A program made the position numbers and the translations under genes. Below, piece after piece: positions 56,958 to 64,000 of a stretch of DNA of 64,000 nt (positions are counted from its first letter, which is position 1; every line of letters starts with the position of its first letter). Below the pieces are notes generated by a model. That model saw only the letters and a program-made list of their open reading frames with translations, made no database searches and was not told the DNA's origin. Where the stretch lies: the NCBI RefSeq assembly GCF_000819565.1, contig NZ_CP004393.1, forward strand, positions 3,472,001 through 3,536,000, written 5' to 3'. The stretch is from Celeribacter indicus (GTDB taxonomy: Bacteria; Pseudomonadota; Alphaproteobacteria; Rhodobacterales; Rhodobacteraceae).

Positions 56958-58388
56958 TCAGATCCGGGTGAGCAACTCCCCGACGGACTGCTTCGCGTCG
57001 CCGTAATACATGCGCGTGTTGTCCTTGTAGAACAGCGGGTTCTCGATGCCGGAATAGCCCGTGCCCTGGCCGCGCTTGCTGACGAAGACCTGTTTCGCCT
57101 TCCACACCTCGAGCACCGGCATCCCCGCGATCGGGGAATTCGGGTCGTCCTGTGCCGCCGGGTTCACGATGTCGTTCGAGCCGATCACGATCACCACATC
57201 CGTCTCCGGGAAGTCCTCGTTGATCTCGTCCATCTCCAGCACGATGTCATAGGGCACCTTCGCCTCCGCCAGCAGCACGTTCATGTGCCCCGGAAGGCGG
57301 CCGGCGACCGGGTGGATCGCGAAGCGCACCTGCTTGCCCTTCGCCCGCAGCTTGCGCGTCAGCTCGGCCACGTTCTGCTGCGCCTGCGCCACCGCCATGC
57401 CGTAGCCCGGCACGATCACCACGCTGTCGGCCTCCTCCAGCGCCGCCGCCACGCCGTCGGCGTCGATCGCCACCTGTTCGCCCTCCACCGCCATCGCCGG
57501 ACCCGCGGTGCCGCCGAAGCCGCCGAGGATCACCGAGACGAAGCTGCGGTTCATCGCCTTGCACATGATGTAGCTCAGGATCGCCCCCGAGGAGCCCACC
57601 AGCGCCCCCACCACGATCAGCAGGTCGTTGGACAGCGAGAACCCGATCGCCGCCGCCGCCCAGCCCGAATAGCTGTTCAGCATCGACACCACCACCGGCA
57701 TGTCCGCCCCGCCGATCCCCATGATCAGGTGATAGCCGATGAACAGCGCGCAGAGCGTCATCAGCAGCAGCGGCACCACCCCGCCGGTGTTGACGTACCA
57801 CACCAGGCACAGCACCGAGAGGACCGCCGCCGCCGCGTTCAGCAGGTGCCCGCCCGGCAGCTTCTCCGCCTTCGAGCTCACCTTGCCCGCGAGCTTGCCG
57901 AAGGCCACCACCGAGCCGGTGAAGGTCACCGCCCCGATGAAGATCCCGAGGAACAGCTCCACCTTCAGGATCGTCAGCTCGACCGGCGCCTTGTGCGCCA
58001 CCAGCGCCGCGAACGTGCCGAGATCGGCCAGCCCCGCCGCATCCATCCCGGCCACGCGCCCCATCACCAGATGCGCGTTATAGCCCACGAACACCGCCGC
58101 GAGCCCCACCAGCGAATGCATCGCCGCCACGAGCTGCGGCATCCCGGTCATCTCGACCTTCCCGGCCACATACCAGCCGATCACCCCGCCGCCCGCGATC
58201 AGGAGCGCGGAGAGCAGCCACAGGCCCGAGCCCGGCCCGATCAGCGTCGCGAACACCGCCAGCGCCATGCCCGCGATCCCGTACCACACCGCGCGTTTCG
58301 CGCTCTCCTGCCCCGACAGGCCGCCGAGCGAGAGGATGAAGAGAACTGCCGCGACCACATAGGCCGCCGTCGTGAATCCGAAGTCCAT
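56958..58388 (-). CDS. pntB: NAD(P) transhydrogenase subunit beta
   Basis: Membrane and NADP(H)-binding part of proton-translocating transhydrogenase, which makes NADPH from NADH using proton motive force. 476 residues: about nine membrane spans, then the NADP domain with [56 protein letters not shown] and the C-terminal [20 protein letters not shown]. It follows pntA after 15 bp. A strong terminator lies directly downstream. Confidence 0.96.
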
Positions 58389-58403
58389 TGTCTCTCTCCC
58401 GCC

Positions 58404-59975
58404 TCAGGATTTCTGGAACATGGCGAGCATGCGCCGGGTGACGAGGAAGCCGCCGAAGATGTTGATCCCGGCCATGAACACCGACAGCGCCGCCAGCACC
58501 ACCACGAGCCAGCTCCCCGAGCCGATCTGCATCAGCGCCCCCAGGATGATGATCGAGCTGATCGCGTTCGTCACCGCCATCAGCGGCGTGTGCAGCGCGT
58601 GGCTCACGTTCCAGATCACCTGGAAGCCGACGAAGACCGCCAGCACGAAGACGATGAAATGCTGCATGAAGGAGGCCGGCGCCACCAGCCCCACACCCAG
58701 CAGCAGCACCGCCCCCGCCGCGAGCAGCCCGACCTGCGTCCGCGTCTCCCGCCGGAAGGCCGCGGCCTCCTGCGCGCGTTTCTCCTCCGCCGTCGGCTCC
58801 TTCGGCTTCTCGCGCCTCTGCGCCGCGATCGCCTGCACCTTCGGCGGCGGCGGCGGGAAGGTGATCTCCCCCGCATGGGTCACCGTCGCCCCCCGGATCA
58901 CGTCGTCCTCCATGTCCTGCACCACCTGGCCGTCCTTGCCGGGCGTCAGGTCGGTCATCATGTGGCGGATGTTCGTCGCATAGAGCGTCGAGGCCTGGGT
59001 CGCCATCCGGCTCGGGAAATCGGTGTAGCCGATGATCGTCACGCCGTTGGGCGTCACGATCTTCTCGTCCGGCACCGTCAGCTTGCAGTTGCCGCCGCGC
59101 TCCGCGGCGAGGTCCACGATCACCGAACCCGGCTTCATCGCCGCCACCATCTCCTCGGTCCAGAGCTCCGGCGCCTCCCGGTTCGGGATCAGCGCCGTGG
59201 TGATCACGATGTCCATCTCCGGCGCGAGCTCGCGGAACTTCCTCAGCTGCGCCTCGCGGAATTCCGGCGAGGACACAGAGGCATAGCCCCCCGTCGCCGC
59301 CCCGTCGCCCTGCTCCTCCTCGAAGTCGAGATAGACGAATTCCGCCCCCATGCTCTCCACCTGCTCGGCCACCTCCGGCCGCACGTCGAACGCACGGGTC
59401 ACCGCCCCCAGCGAGGTCGAGGTGCCGATCGCCGCAAGCCCCGCGACGCCCGCGCCCACCACCAGCACCTTCGCCGGCGGCACCTTGCCCGCCGCCGTCA
59501 CCTGCCCGGTGAAGAACCGACCGAAATTGCTCCCCGCCTCGATCACCGCCCGGTAGCCCGCGATATTGGCCATGGAACTCAGCGCGTCCATCTTCTGCGC
59601 CCGGCTGATCCGCGGCACCATCTCCATCGCGATCACCGTCGCGCCCGCCGCCTTCGCCGCCTCCAGACCCGCCGCATTGCCGCCGGGGTTGAAGAAGGAG
59701 ATCAGCGTCTGCCCCGCGCGCAGCAGCCCCAGCTCCGCCTCCGTCGGCACCCGCACCTTCGCGACGACGTCGCTCCGCGCCCAGAGGTCCGAGGCGCTCT
59801 CCACCACCTCAACACCCGCAGCCGCATACTCCGCATCCGCAAACCCCGCACGCACACCCGCGCCGCTCTCGACAAGGCATTCATAGCCCAGCTTCTGAAC
59901 CTGCGCCGCGCTCGCAGGCGTCAGCGCAACACGCGCCTCGCCCTCAATCACTTCCCTCGGAACACCGAATCTCAC
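58404..59975 (-). CDS. pntA: NAD(P) transhydrogenase subunit alpha
   Basis: NAD(H)-binding subunit with C-terminal membrane helices, 523 residues. Begins [20 protein letters not shown]; the NAD fold shows [21 protein letters not shown] and later [13 protein letters not shown]. The last ~140 residues are four membrane spans (single-chain alpha, not split into A1/A2). About 100 bases of its 5' coding end are found again, decayed, at 61.85-61.98 kb. The 341-bp gap before the GNAT gene holds its promoter and a dyad at 60008-60023. Confidence 0.96.
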
Positions 59976-60315
59976 CTGGATTTCCTTCTCTTCCCCAGTC
60001 CAAAATCACTGGCTGGCACCAGTCCTATTCAATACCCCTGTCGAAACGCAACATTATTGCGCATAAAAATCGACCTCCGGCCTGCCAGCCCCGTCACGGA
60101 TGCGGTTGTCGCGCTCCTCCGAGCGGTTCCCCCCGCATCGCATGTCTCCCCGCCGGACGCGCCGCCAGATTGGCCGCACAGTAAAGAAAAGCCTGAAGGA
60201 GTAAAGACATCGCCCCGTTTGAATCGGCGCTCCCGTAAATCTGTAAATCCCGGCCCGCGCCATGACCGCCCCCTCCTGTCTGGCGCCCGCCCGCCGCGCG
60301 CGCTACATCGGAGGA
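59976..60315. promoter_or_regulatory. Divergent gap between pntA and the GNAT gene
   Basis: 340 bp, more AT-rich than usual, with no convincing gene. An inverted repeat ACTGG/CCAGT with a six-base loop (60008-60023) stands 33 bp before pntA. Nearer the GNAT gene a direct repeat GTAAATC-T-GTAAATC lies at 60235-60249. Both are possible regulator sites. Small minus-strand frames (60054-60263) were judged non-coding. Confidence 0.4.
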
Positions 60316-60861
60316 ATGAACCTGCGCCCGCTGACACCTGCCGACGCCGCGGCCTGCTACGCGCTCTTCCACCGCACCGTCCATGGCGGAACGGGGGCCT
60401 TCTATTCCGCCGAACAGCGCGCCGCCTGGGCGCCTGCACGCGACCGGGCCCCCGAAACCTGGCCGGAACGCCTCACCAGCGGCTTTGCGATCTGCGCCAC
60501 GCGCCGGGGGCGGATCGTCGGCTTCTTCACCATGGGCCACGACGGGCATATCGACTTTGCCTATGTCGCGCTCGAGGAAATGGGCCGGGGCACGGCCGGG
60601 CGGCTCTACGACGCCTGCGAGGCGGAGGCGCGCCGCCTGGGACTGCCGCAGATGGACACCGCCGCCTCCCACCTCGCCCGCCGCTTCTTCGAAAAGCGCG
60701 GCTGGCGCGTCACGGCGCGCCAGACCGTGATCCGCGCCTCCGTCGGGATCGAGAATTTCCGGATGGAGAAGAGCTTGCCCCCCGGCGGGGACGCATGTCA
60801 TCCTGACGGGGAGACACGGGAGACGCGCGAAACGGGGATCGCGCGGAGGAGAGGACGCAGG
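60316..60861 (+). CDS. GNAT acetyltransferase, no stop before the next gene
   Basis: N-acetyltransferase of the GNAT fold, about 155 residues of domain: the N-terminal MNLRPLTPADAAACYALF, GFAICATRRGRIVGFFTMG, then the acetyl-CoA region MGRGTAGRLYDACEAEARRLG, and RRFFEKRGWRVTARQTV. The family normally stops soon after a motif like FRMEK, here at about 60770. Instead the frame stays open for 30 further low-complexity codons and enters the M23 gene. The start is supported by a full-length pseudogene copy at 63209, which aligns from the same ATG. ATG 60262 is an alternative. GGAGGA directly precedes the ATG. Confidence 0.75.
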
Positions 60862-61848
60862 ATGACACGCTGGAGCATCCGCATTGCGGCGCTCGCCCTG
60901 CTCGGCCTTGCCGGCGCCGCCGGGGCCGATCCGCTCGCCACCGCCCGGCGCATGGCGGAGGCCTTCCTGCGCGGCGACGTGGAGACGGTCTGGCAGGCCG
61001 CGACCCCGCAGATGCGGGAGGCCTTCGGTTCGGTCGACGATCTCGCGGGGCTGCGGGAGGGGCTGCGCCGCGATCTGGGAACAGAGGACACGATCCTCTC
61101 CGAAAGCGTGGAGACGCAGTCCGGCCACGAGGTCTTCACCCGGCTGTCGCGCTGGTCCGGTTCTGCGGTCCCCGTGGAACTCGTCGTCGCGCTCGACGGG
61201 ACCGGGCGGATCGCCGGGTTCCTCGTCCGGCCGCAGCCAGTCGCCGCGCCGAGCCCGCATCTGGAATACGAGACGAAGGCACGGCTGCGCCTGCCGGTCG
61301 AGGGGGACTGGCATGTCTACTGGGGCGGGCGGGAGATCGGGGAGAATTACCACGCCGCCGATCCGGGACAGCGGTTCGCGCTGGACATTCTGGTGCTCGA
61401 GGAGGGGCAAAGCCATTCCGGCGATCCGGCCGAACCGGCAAGCTACCAGTGCTGGGGCCGTCCGATCCTCGCCCCGGCGGAAGGTGTCGTCGTCCGTGCC
61501 GTCGACGGTCTCCCGGACCAGCCGATCGGCCGCCTCGATCCGGCCCATCCCGCGGGAAACCATGTCGTGATCGACTTCGGCCAGGGCGAATACGGGTTCC
61601 TCGCCCATCTGCAAGAGGGCAGCCTCCGCGTCGCGCAGGGGGACCGGGTGACGGCGGGACAGGACATCGGCCTCTGCGGCAACAGCGGCAACAGTTCGGA
61701 GCCGCATCTGCATTTCCATCTTCAGACGACGCCGGATCTCGGCCGGGGCGAGGGCCTTCCCGCGCAATTCACGCACTATCTCGCGGACGGCCAGCGGGTC
61801 GAGCGGGGCGAACCGGTGAAAGGGCAGACGATCCGCGCGCTCCCGTGA
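60862..61848 (+). CDS. Secreted M23 family metallopeptidase with N-terminal DUF3887-like domain
   Basis: 328 residues: signal peptide (IRIAALALLGLAGAAGA, cleavage near residue 22), a DUF3887-like helical domain (about 25-110) with TARRMAEAFLRGDVETVWQAA, and a C-terminal M23 peptidase. Zinc ligands are complete: NYH, ALD and the HLHFHL motif in SEPHLHFHLQ. So unlike NlpD in this window it should be an active peptidoglycan endopeptidase. AGGAGAGG lies upstream of ATG 60862, supporting separate initiation, yet the GNAT frame runs straight through this start. Confidence 0.85.
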   Translation: MTRWSIRIAALALLGLAGAAGADPLATARRMAEAFLRGDVETVWQAATPQMREAFGSVDDLAGLREGLRRDLGTEDTILSESVETQSGHEVFTRLSRWSGSAVPVELVVALDGTGRIAGFLVRPQPVAAPSPHLEYETKARLRLPVEGDWHVYWGGREIGENYHAADPGQRFALDILVLEEGQSHSGDPAEPASYQCWGRPILAPAEGVVVRAVDGLPDQPIGRLDPAHPAGNHVVIDFGQGEYGFLAHLQEGSLRVAQGDRVTAGQDIGLCGNSGNSSEPHLHFHLQTTPDLGRGEGLPAQFTHYLADGQRVERGEPVKGQTIRALP

Positions 61849-62466
61849 CCGCCGCGGCGTCATCCGCACCGCGCGCCGCGAGGCCCCCATGCCCCGGCTT
61901 CCGAACCTGCACCGCGCGCGCCGGCGCCAGCGCAACACGCGCCCCGCCCTTGATCACGTTCCTGGCGGCTCGGACACTCCCGTTCCATTCCGCCCGGTCC
62001 GCACCCTCTTGCCGCCCCCTTGCCGAACCGCGGACGGCCCCCCGTTTCCTCGTCCCGGATGAACAGATGCGCGACCGCGGCCATGCTGCCGGGCAGGAGC
62101 AGGACGCTCCCGCGACGAGCGCCCGGCACGCCAGCGCAGCCAGAGCGGCGGCGCGACGAAGGGCGAGCGACGCCAGAGCCTTCGCCAGACGCCGGACCGG
62201 GGGGATGAACAGAATGTTGTCATCTCTGAGCCTGACGCGTGTCGATCGTCAGGGCATTTGCCCTTTCGGGTCACGAAATGCCCTTTGGGTGCCGCTGCGC
62301 GCCTCGGCTCGGTTTGCCCCCGCCGCTAGAGGGCAAACACCTTATCTGCACCCGCCGCGCGGGTGCGCCGCTTCATGAAAACCTGAAGGTCGGCTGGGAG
62401 CCCAACTTGCGTTTTTCTGCGGCTGCATACTAGACAGTGGGAAACAGAAACGACTGCTGAACCGTC
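61849..62466. other. 618-bp degenerate region without intact genes
   Basis: The first ~130 bp hold a decayed copy of the pntA 5' end (separate entry). Beyond it I see no gene with normal codon use. Two hairpins can form: GGGCATTT/AAATGCCC (62252-62259 and 62276-62283) and GTTTGCCC/GGGCAAAC (62312-62319 and 62331-62338). From about 62380 the base composition becomes less GC-rich, continuing into the kinase-like gene. Confidence 0.7.
61850..61981 (-). pseudogene. Decayed duplicate of the pntA 5' end
   Basis: Clearest over 61895-61960: compared with 59889-59954 of pntA about 85% of bases agree by eye, in the same orientation, with an offset of 2,006 bp. In the pntA reading frame it encodes VIKGGARVALAPARAVQVRK against pnt[21 protein letters not shown]. 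No start codon and no continuation of the gene: a remnant, not a gene. It lies right after the M23 stop. Confidence 0.85.
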
Positions 62467-63021
62467 ATGCCTGAGCCTTCCCGACATCGTGTATATATCT
62501 TCGGCGCGTCCGGTACTGGGACAACGACTCTTGGTGAGAATATTGCGGCTGAATTGTCGTTGGTTCATGTCGATTGCGATGACCACTACTGGGCTCCCGT
62601 CGAGCCTCCATTCTCTGTCAAAAGAGAGCCCCATGAACGGGTTGCGTCAATGTCTGGTGCTCTCGGGAATGCAGGCTGGGTGCTTACCGGGGCATGCAAT
62701 GGATGGGGCCATGGGCTGATTGAGCAGGCTGACTTAATTGTGTTCGTCACTCTGCCGACGCCGATGCGGATAGAGCGGTTGAGAATGCGAGAAAAAGCTC
62801 GCTTTGGAAATCGGATCGAGGAAGGTGGAGACATGTGTGAAATCCACAAAGACTTCATCCGATGGGCGCAAGGTTATGACGACCCCGGTTTTCGGGGCCG
62901 TAATCTGGCGGCACACGAAGAATGGCTTGCACGACAGTCAAAACCTGTTTGTCGGGTTAACAGCAGTCAGTCCCGTGAAACCATTAAGAGCGCTGTCATC
63001 TCTGCACTCCGCTCGCTCTGA
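62467..63021 (+). CDS. P-loop NTPase, adenylate-kinase-like, without the Walker A lysine
   Basis: 184 residues. The P-loop reads GASGTGTTTLG (residues 13-23), so the usual GK[ST] is GTT. DCDDHYWAPVEPPFSVKR, ADLIVFVTLPTPMRIERLRMREKARFG and GGDMCEIHKDFIRWAQGYDDP identify a known small-kinase-like family that has this altered loop. The substrate is not known. The gene is less GC-rich than its surroundings, uses codons with A/T at the third position freely, and has no good ribosome site, all suggesting horizontal origin. It sits between decayed copies of pntA and the GNAT gene. Confidence 0.75.
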   Translation: MPEPSRHRVYIFGASGTGTTTLGENIAAELSLVHVDCDDHYWAPVEPPFSVKREPHERVASMSGALGNAGWVLTGACNGWGHGLIEQADLIVFVTLPTPMRIERLRMREKARFGNRIEEGGDMCEIHKDFIRWAQGYDDPGFRGRNLAAHEEWLARQSKPVCRVNSSQSRETIKSAVISALRSL

Positions 63022-63055
63022 CCAACGGCAACTTCGTCCCGCATAGTTGCCCCTC

Positions 63056-63082
63056 GGGCCGTGTCCGTCCCGGACACGGCCC
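63056..63082. terminator. Perfect 12-bp hairpin after the kinase-like gene
   Basis: GGGCCGTGTCCG (63056-63067) and CGGACACGGCCC (63071-63082) pair without mismatch around a TCC loop. It lies 35 bases after the gene's stop and is the most stable short dyad in the window. There is no T-run. Terminator or transcript-end stabiliser is likely; a remnant of a palindromic element is the alternative. Confidence 0.55.
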
Positions 63083-63208
63083 GTGAAGAAAAGGGCAGTT
63101 TCGTTGCCGATCCGAAATCGGTCCGCGTGTTTTCAAGGCGTTGGCACGGGCCAAAAGGACAAATCCGGTGTCTCTCGACAACGCGAACGGCAGTCCCGAA
63201 GGGCGGGC

Positions 63209-63658
63209 ATGAGGTTGCGCTCCCTGAAACCGGCCGGCGCGATGGTCTGCCATGCGCCCTTCCTCCGCACGATCCGCGGCGGATCGGCGGCGTTTCACAG
63301 GGGCCGGAAAGCGCGCGCCTGGGCGCCTGCACGCAGCCGGGCCCGAAACCTCGTGGAAACGCCTCGCCAGCGGCTTTGCGATCTGCGCCACCCGCCGGGG
63401 GCGGATCGTGGGCGTCTTCACCATGGGCCATCACGGGCACATCGCCCTTGCCTGTGCCGCGCTCGGGGATATGGGCCGGGGCGCCCGCGTTCAGGCTCCG
63501 TGAGGCCTGCAAAACGGACGCCCGGAGACCGCCCATCCACACACCGCCGCCTCGCATCTCGCCCGGCGCGTCTTCGAGCGAGGGGTTGGCCCGTCACCGC
63601 CCGTCAGACGGTGTTCCGCCACGGCCTGAAGACCGGGCATTCCGCATGAAAATGGAAT
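63209..63658 (+). pseudogene. Frameshifted pseudogene copy of the GNAT gene
   Basis: Full-length degenerate copy of 60316-60770. It begins MRLRSLKPAGAMVCHAPFLRT against MNLRPLTPADAAACYALFHRT. A one-base deletion near 63323 and a two-base deletion near 63345 shift the frame into GFAICATRRGRIVGVFTMGHHG, almost identical to the intact gene; then TGA at 63501-63503 ends that frame. A further shift restores WPVTARQTVFR. The closest stretch is more than 90% identical by eye. It ends nine bases before the stop of the glutamine amidotransferase gene. Confidence 0.9.
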
Positions 63659-63666
63659 GCAACGGC

Positions 63667-64000
63667 TCACGCCGCCTCGACCGTCTTCCCGCGCGATCTG
63701 GCGAAACGGCGCACGGCCTCGCCGAAGGCCTCGAACAGCGGGCGCGACACCGGGTCCTCGCCCGCGCGATATTCCGGATGCCATTGCACCGCGAGGGTGA
63801 AGCCCGGCGCGTCCTTCACATAGAGCGCTTCCGGCGTGCCGTCGGGCGCGCGGCCGTCGATCACCACGCGGGCGCCGGGCGCCTTGATCCCCTGCCCGTG
63901 CAGCGTGTTGGTCATCACCTCGGGCGCGCCGAACAGCGCGTGGAATACGCCGCCCTCGCAAAGCGTCACCGGATGGCGCAGCGCGAATTTCTCCTCGAGC
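63667..64000 (-). CDS. Class I glutamine amidotransferase-like (PuuD type), N-terminus outside the window
   Basis: C-terminal ~110 residues of a gamma-glutamyl-gamma-aminobutyrate hydrolase-type protein. TNTLHGQGIKAPGARV, APDGTPEALYVKDAPGFTLAVQWHPEYR and the following PVSRPLFEAFGEAVRRFA are the family's C-terminal region, with the catalytic histidine and glutamate in QWHPE. The nucleophilic cysteine lies beyond the right edge. It is related to enzymes that free GABA from gamma-glutamyl-GABA in putrescine use. The frame is open to base 63999. Confidence 0.85.
   Translation of the reverse strand, partial: LEEKFALRHPVTLCEGGVFHALFGAPEVMTNTLHGQGIKAPGARVVIDGRAPDGTPEALYVKDAPGFTLAVQWHPEYRAGEDPVSRPLFEAFGEAVRRFARSRGKTVEAA

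Follow-up and report, generated by a model that had tools for sequence, protein, structure and literature searches.

A decayed tandem duplication and a gene cassette without a recognized transposase at the pntA locus of Celeribacter indicus, with related cassettes behind tRNA genes in Rhodobacteraceae

We analyzed a 64,000-bp window of the Celeribacter indicus genome (G000:C1:3472001-3536000; genome of 4.97 Mb, 6 contigs), in which the 5' end of pntA and a GNAT acetyltransferase gene occur twice, with an M23 peptidase gene between the copies and a kinase-like gene inside the second copy. The results suggest that two events are probably stacked at this locus. The pntA 5' end and GNAT would have undergone a tandem duplication with an incoming M23 gene between the copies, and a 941-bp cassette, consisting of a left end (LE), one gene, and a right end (RE), would then have jumped into the spacer between the second copies (pntA' and GNAT'), moved by a tRNA-homing machinery of the Tn7 type acting in trans.

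To test the claim of the initial annotation that the block is present in two copies, the region 59700-61850 was compared with 61850-63900 by BLASTN. The results showed two collinear plus/plus matches, one covering GNAT (60323-60735 against 63216-63619; 318 of 415 columns, 77%, 13 gaps, E 7e-82) and one covering the pntA 5' end (59855-59957 against 61861-61963; 80/103, 78%, no gaps, E 7e-19). The offsets between the copies, 2,006 bp for pntA' and 2,893 bp for GNAT', were as first described, but the pntA' remnant was longer and less similar (103 bp at 78%) than the approximately 65 bp at approximately 85% originally reported. The two offsets differ by 887 bp; the extra stretch of about 890 bp had been assigned to the region of the lower-GC kinase gene, and it is explained by the 941-bp insertion plus a 5-bp target-site duplication (TSD) minus 59 bp net. 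There was no significant likeness between the copies in the pntA-GNAT spacer (local score equalled in 128 of 500 mononucleotide shuffles). GNAT' is a pseudogene, as had been proposed: compared with GNAT it contains frameshifts, so that the conserved stretches are spread over different frames, and copy 1 is open. The G+C contents of the copies are 0.710 and 0.713, with no drop accompanying the decay.

The genus set comprised 20 genomes including the window's own, and the locus was fetched from 18 of the 19 congeners (G006 was left out). In all 18, GNAT is single and adjoins a glutamine amidotransferase-like gene (GATase), without M23 and without the kinase; pntA lies on its other side in 17, and in G008 some 11 kb separate GNAT from the nearest match to pntA. 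In a tree of GNAT DNA sequences, the two copies of the window were sisters (UFBoot 99), with branches of 0.04 for copy 1 and 0.51 for copy 2. Since the GNAT copies are sisters and the 18 fetched congeners have a single copy, these sequences indicate that the pntA 5'-GNAT duplication is lineage-specific and that one of its copies decayed, in agreement with the duplication and later decay first suggested. A duplication of this kind is by itself ordinary; here it is seen in the two copies, in their sister relation, and in a new joint.

The new joint contains the M23 gene, which lies between GNAT copy 1 and pntA'. An open reading frame (ORF) of 528 aa (60262-61848) comprises both an Acetyltransf_10 and a Peptidase_M23 domain. 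In the eight relatives in which the GNAT end was read, the protein stops shortly past FRM(E/Q)K, whereas the frame of the window continues into M23, the GNAT stop codon being absent at the start of the M23 segment. The 528-aa frame, resulting from the stop codon lost at the joint, may be annotated as a fusion protein. The M23 protein had some match in 205 of 248 family genomes; the only full-length match (58%) was in G269, where the gene is free-standing and encodes 331 aa. Partial matches were present in the 19 congeners and covered mostly the M23 domain, one in G002 spanning residues 10-146, with a stop. Because only one full-length relative was found in the 248 genomes, M23 was probably acquired.

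According to the initial annotation, a unit of about 2 kb with pntA 5' end, GNAT, and M23 was duplicated in tandem, the second M23 was lost, and the kinase gene was gained by an unspecified route. The order and the offsets fit this course of events, and M23 may once have been present between GNAT and GATase, given that the matched ends of these genes are 388-2,733 bp apart, with other DNA between them, in seven of the 18 relatives. However, M23 is absent from the locus in all 18, the gain of the kinase is a defined transposition, and the close GNAT'-GATase join would have to have been restored: GNAT' ends approximately 20-50 bp from the GATase stop, comparable to the 11 of 18 relatives in which the matched ends are no more than 67 bp apart. 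We therefore consider this course unlikely. An M23 gene arriving at the new joint, where the GNAT stop is missing, is simpler than duplication followed by loss of a second M23, since GNAT' is as close to GATase as in those 11 relatives and no loss is needed.

It is also conceivable, though in our view improbable, that copy 1 was imported together with M23 from a near relative by homologous recombination, and that the resident copy was displaced and decayed. The probable acquisition of M23, with one full-length close relative (58%) among the 248 family genomes and otherwise domain matches, would agree with this, as would the recurrence of pntAB at 99.87% over 3,019 bp on contig C2, which shows that the region has moved. 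On the other hand, the two GNAT copies group with each other in the tree and leave all 18 relatives outside (UFBoot 99), so that any donor would have to be closer than those congeners. In the duplication that we favor, the order and route would most simply be a crossover inserting the piece pntA 5'-GNAT-M23, after which copy 1 would have stayed open, with GNAT fused in frame to M23, and copy 2 would have decayed.

The second event is represented by the cassette at 62240-63180 (941 bp). It has imperfect inverted ends, TGTCGA...TCGACA, which are identical at 22 of 30 positions as inverted repeats, and it is flanked on both sides by the TSD ACGCG (5/5). Its G+C content is 0.567, compared with 0.674 for the window, and its content is a single 184-aa kinase-like ORF with overlapping shorter ORFs and no transposase. 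Thus, the kinase gene is foreign, as initially stated, but it was not merely gained: a transposable cassette, whose ends are defined and whose TSD is perfect, carries it as cargo. When the own genome was searched with the locus, the left and right stretches flanking the kinase recurred at C1:74.0-75.0 kb around another gene (229 aa), and part of the left stretch was also found at C1:4433.5 kb. Among the 248 family genomes, 62 had homologues of the kinase. We fetched 20 kinase loci, and apart from that of the window none of them had cassette ends, the best stray match being 28 bp of RE in L193 (E 0.0083), suggesting that the cassette probably captured a free kinase gene. Because the cassette ends and the gene are intact while the surroundings are decayed, the cassette would most likely have arrived after the decay around it had begun.

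Further cassettes were sought with profiles of LE and RE and by searches of 61 genomes (the own genome and 60 relatives), 394 family genomes, and an 84,980-genome GTDB set. Cassettes that share these ends but carry different genes were found in several Rhodobacteraceae genera. A total of 22 loci had an LE terminus, including two divergent ones (L096 and L059); this table of 22 excludes loci in which RE alone or part of LE was present (L008, L061, L064, L065, L066, L095, and L172-L174). LE matched in 15 of the 394 family genomes at E<=0.001, and as the match was no longer than 33 bp in six of these (G111, G147, G150, G314, G383, and G399), nine count; RE matched in 11, and with such short matches only in G061, G206, G232, and G293, seven count. 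The GTDB contigs gave 18 stretches with the terminal pattern, 15 of which had LE/RE profile matches beyond it; there were none in L154 and L162, and L166 had the pattern only. No LE match was found in PLSDB plasmids, and the terminal pattern had 0 matches in IMG/VR.

The cargo of the cassettes is unrelated from copy to copy. The second cassette of the own genome (L006 3987-5072, C1:73986-75071) lies behind tRNA-Pro(CGG) and has the same ends, the TSD TCAAT (5/5), and another cargo, a 229-aa protein with only a sub-threshold match to C92. Elsewhere, the cargo is an ANT(9)/AadA-like nucleotidyltransferase (L057), a GFA protein (L059), a 141-aa protein with no family assigned (L060), EamA with AsnC (L091), LysR with a 361-aa protein lacking a Pfam match (L092), a glyoxalase-like protein below threshold (L093), or LysR with a sulfotransferase (L165). 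L095 has degraded ends and a 326-aa ORF without family assignment, L163 has no clear gene, and L058 has both ends within 410 bp and no evident gene. The two-ended copies span 0.4-2.4 kb, and nearly all except L058 carry a gene. No tnsB, tnsC, or tniQ gene was recognized in the ORFs of the 11 two-ended elements or in Pfam scans of the main cargo ORFs.

In Marinovum algicola (NZ_FNYY01000004.1; L164 297-2969), tRNA-Pro precedes an LE, and next to it lies a gene for an 890-aa subtilase with a match to the defence protein IetS (PADLOC, 9.9e-218). As no right end was found within this locus, the subtilase is a candidate cargo only.

In 16 of the 22 loci, LE lies 9-12 bp past the 3' end of a tRNA gene, and the tRNA reads toward LE in all 16. 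The gene is tRNA-Pro(CGG) in 13 loci, including L167, the locus of which contains no more than the tRNA tail, identified by eye, tRNA-Pro(TGG) in one, and tRNA-Arg(TCT) in two; the gap is 9-10 bp for tRNA-Pro and 12 bp for tRNA-Arg. Outside this pattern are the window, L163 (TSD 5/5), L165, L168, L096, and L059. LE of L168 begins 4 bp past the RE of another cassette, and L006 is trailed by a weak LE-like stretch (E 0.11); cassettes may thus stack. The consensus ends had no 9-mer in common with tRNA-Pro of L006. The inverted ends, the TSD, the lack of a recognized transposase inside, the fixed one-way position behind tRNA genes, and the unrelated cargo are thus all observed features.

Among the 19 sequences of the LE alignment, five start with TAT, one with TTT, and one with AGT. 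The consensus terminal 24-mers of LE and RE matched each other better than in any of 300 shuffles, and an internal repeat of the RE consensus was equalled in 2 of 300. The ends do not look like those of Tn3-type elements. Rfam gave no match at E<=1 in 59800-64000. Consensus folding showed compensatory changes in 2 of 27 pairs in LE and four common pairs in RE; taken singly, the ends of the window cassette fold more stably than shuffled sequences (z -2.26 and -4.28). No match to a sigma-70-type promoter or a T-run terminator was found in 62200-63220.

Compact genes without a promoter match, a hairpin-rich 3' end, and one ANT(9)/AadA-like gene are reminiscent of integron gene cassettes, the attC sites of which have the core motif GTTRRRY. 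However, there was no GTTRRRY on either strand of RE and a single one in LE, at its inner edge, and the units have direct target duplications and inverted ends. It is therefore very improbable that they are integron-type cassettes.

Our best guess at the machinery is of the Tn7 type, because Tn7-like elements resemble the cassettes in their termini (TGT/ACA), in the length of the duplication, and in the use of tRNA genes. According to a review, Tn7 and its relatives generate a 5-bp duplication and have ends that are typically TGT/ACA, as are those of IS481-type elements, and tRNA genes serve diverse Tn7-like elements as attachment sites (PMC11406308); CyCAST homes 30-33 nt behind tRNA-Leu (PMC10293859). 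A DDE transposase of the Tn7 type, acting in trans, would bind LE and RE, and a selector resembling TniQ/TnsD would normally direct the cassette behind tRNA-Pro or tRNA-Arg, in which case the copy in the window would be an untargeted insertion. In favor of this, TniQ (PF06527) matched in all 10 genomes searched, including that of the window, at 27 places.

A less probable explanation, although one to be taken seriously, is that an ordinary insertion sequence (IS) mobilizes the cassettes in trans, as in a classical mobile insertion cassette, and that the proximity to tRNA genes reflects a target preference of the IS. Such cassettes are defined by inverted ends, a target duplication, and cargo that lacks a transposase; one of them, MIC231A1 of Bacillus cereus, is moved in trans by IS231A (PMC3913671). 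IS481-family elements also end in TGT/ACA (PMC11406308). Nevertheless, TGT...ACA ends with a duplication of 5 bp and a constant spacing on one side of the tRNA form a Tn7-type pattern, although not a decisive one.

Several results weigh against tRNA-homing machinery of the Tn7 type, the main weakness being that the search for the transposase failed within the 21 of 27 TniQ places covered. We scanned 19 stretches containing these 21 places, together with contig L151, with the LE/RE profiles, and found neither an LE/RE terminus in the 19 stretches nor any element with LE/RE ends and its own transposase. The strong profile matches in the scan were cassette loci already found and the known LE fragment of L151; the matches in the TniQ stretches were all weak, namely short ones inside a tnsB-like gene (L135/L136), one in L142 to the inner part of LE (53 bp, 13.2 bits), and a gapped one in L140 to the inner part of RE (10.9 bits), the last two without reaching a terminus. 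Pairs of TGT...ACA with a 5-bp duplication were present in 2 of the 19 stretches (L137 and L148), and their sequences differ from LE/RE. A search of the 394 family genomes for tRNA-Pro followed by TRTC gave eight loci, six of them known cassettes and two without LE-like ends. Furthermore, no tRNA gene adjoins the window copy, and among the 11 two-ended elements no more than four have a perfect TSD, with 4/5 in four, 3/5 in two, and 2/5 in one; in L006 and L058, one boundary was shifted by one base once the flanks had been seen. Finally, with regard to the repeats that several transposase-binding sites would be expected to leave, internal repeats of LE were not significant (equalled in 61 of 300 shuffles), and neither was the likeness of the LE terminus to inner RE (163 of 300).

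The scan of the TniQ places gave two separate observations. L132 (G000:C1:3636000-3655900) has a TniQ-domain ORF of 653 aa beside tRNA-Arg(TCT) and no LE/RE; by eye, its neighbours, a 520-aa cytosine methyltransferase-like ORF and a 943-aa ORF, resemble a restriction or defence island. In L148 (9336-12929, G004:C17), the TniQ locus has other TGT...ACA ends, 20/22 alike, with the 5-bp duplication GACCG, and is apparently another Tn7/Tn5053-type element.

Table 1. Features of the duplicated block, the M23 joint, and the cassette (positions in the window).
Feature	Position	Strand	Basis
pntA (intact), GTG start at 59975	58407..59975	-	ORF and translation; 81-85% to relatives
pntA 5' stretch having a decayed second copy	59855..59957	-	BLASTN, 78% over 103 bp
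GNAT copy 1 (coding; terminal stop codon lost)	60316..60780	+	Pfam Acetyltransf_10 2e-10 inside fused ORF; stop here in 8 relatives read
M23 peptidase gene at novel joint, in frame with GNAT	60862..61848	+	Pfam Peptidase_M23 1.1e-16; absent from locus in 18/18 fetched relatives
pntA 5' remnant (copy 2)	61861..61963	-	BLASTN E 7e-19
TSD, left copy ACGCG	62235..62239	.	sequence, 5/5 match
Transposable cassette, 941 bp, ends TGTCGA...TCGACA	62240..63180	+	terminal inverted repeats and TSD; sister copies
Left end (LE), conserved noncoding	62240..62406	+	19-sequence alignment A1; profile
Cargo: P-loop kinase-like gene, 184 aa (NCBIfam NF004861, PRK06217)	62467..63021	+	219.4 bits vs cut-off 203; Pfam AAA_18 below cut-off only
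Right end (RE), conserved noncoding, starts 3 bp past cargo stop	63024..63180	+	15-sequence alignment A2; profile
TSD, right copy ACGCG	63181..63185	.	sequence
GNAT pseudogene (copy 2)	63209..63650	+	BLASTN E 7e-82; sister of copy 1
Glutamine amidotransferase-like gene (GATase, named by eye), 3' part	63667..64000	-	ORF continues past window (L009); beside GNAT in 18/18 fetched relatives

With regard to the surroundings of the duplicated block, the pntAB pair (56971-59989) is present again on the 155-kb contig C2 (G000:C2:17301-20319; L007 9302-12320) at 99.87% over 3,019 bp. The matching stretch extends to 14 bp upstream of the pntA start at one edge and stops slightly short of the 3' terminus of pntB at the other, and the adjoining ORFs look transporter-like by eye. 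The GNAT-GATase gap of seven of the 18 relatives (L039, L040, L042, L043, L044, L050, and L051) contains 0.4-2.7 kb of other DNA and may be a spot tolerant of insertions.

Tentatively, and with the reservation that the proposal could well fail, we suggest that Rhodobacteraceae may hold an undescribed family of transposase-less cassettes, which would pick up one or two chromosomal genes between conserved noncoding ends and be homed 9-12 bp behind tRNA-Pro or tRNA-Arg by a Tn7-type selector acting in trans, with occasional jumps off site. This would amount to integron-like capture by transposition instead of site-specific recombination. The word undescribed refers to the titles and abstracts listed in searches of the open PMC library, among which such cassettes were not found. 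If the proposal is true, it shows how single genes, including an aminoglycoside nucleotidyltransferase-like gene and gene-regulator pairs, can be kept behind tRNA genes throughout a bacterial family in packages that lack a transposase. The LE/RE ends with their known target are a concrete substrate for seeking the missing transposase, and the tRNA-proximal copies record the target rule.

Casposons encode Cas1. A casposon shares the tRNA-Pro target with the present cassettes, but its insertion lies within the gene, whereas the cassettes lie 9-10 bp behind (PMC6563490). Miniature inverted-repeat transposable elements and Tn3-derived inverted-repeat miniature elements (PMC4133298) resemble L058, an empty 410-bp version with both ends, whereas nearly all other two-ended copies carry a gene. 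Integron gene cassettes likewise combine a common frame with compact genes whose functions are unrelated, but have attC sites instead of inverted ends and target duplications. The Tn7-like tRNA-homing transposons (I-B2 and I-D CRISPR-associated transposons, CyCAST; PMC11406308, PMC10293859) are similar in their TGT/ACA termini, 5-bp duplication, and single orientation downstream of a tRNA; unlike them, the cassettes have no recognized tns, tniQ, or cas genes, span 0.4-2.4 kb, and lie 9-12 bp behind the tRNA as compared with the 30-33 nt behind tRNA-Leu in CyCAST. The mobile insertion cassettes MIC231A1, mic-qnrD, and mic-qnrS2 (PMC3913671) have inverted ends, one passenger gene, no transposase, and a TSD in common with the present ones, but mic-qnrD has 24-bp ends and a 2-bp duplication, whereas the cassettes described here have conserved noncoding ends of approximately 160 bp and a 5-bp duplication and lie behind a tRNA in 16 of 22 loci. 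Thus, passenger-gene cassettes without a transposase are already known, and what is new is how long the conserved ends are and how varied the cargo is, together with the homing to tRNA genes.

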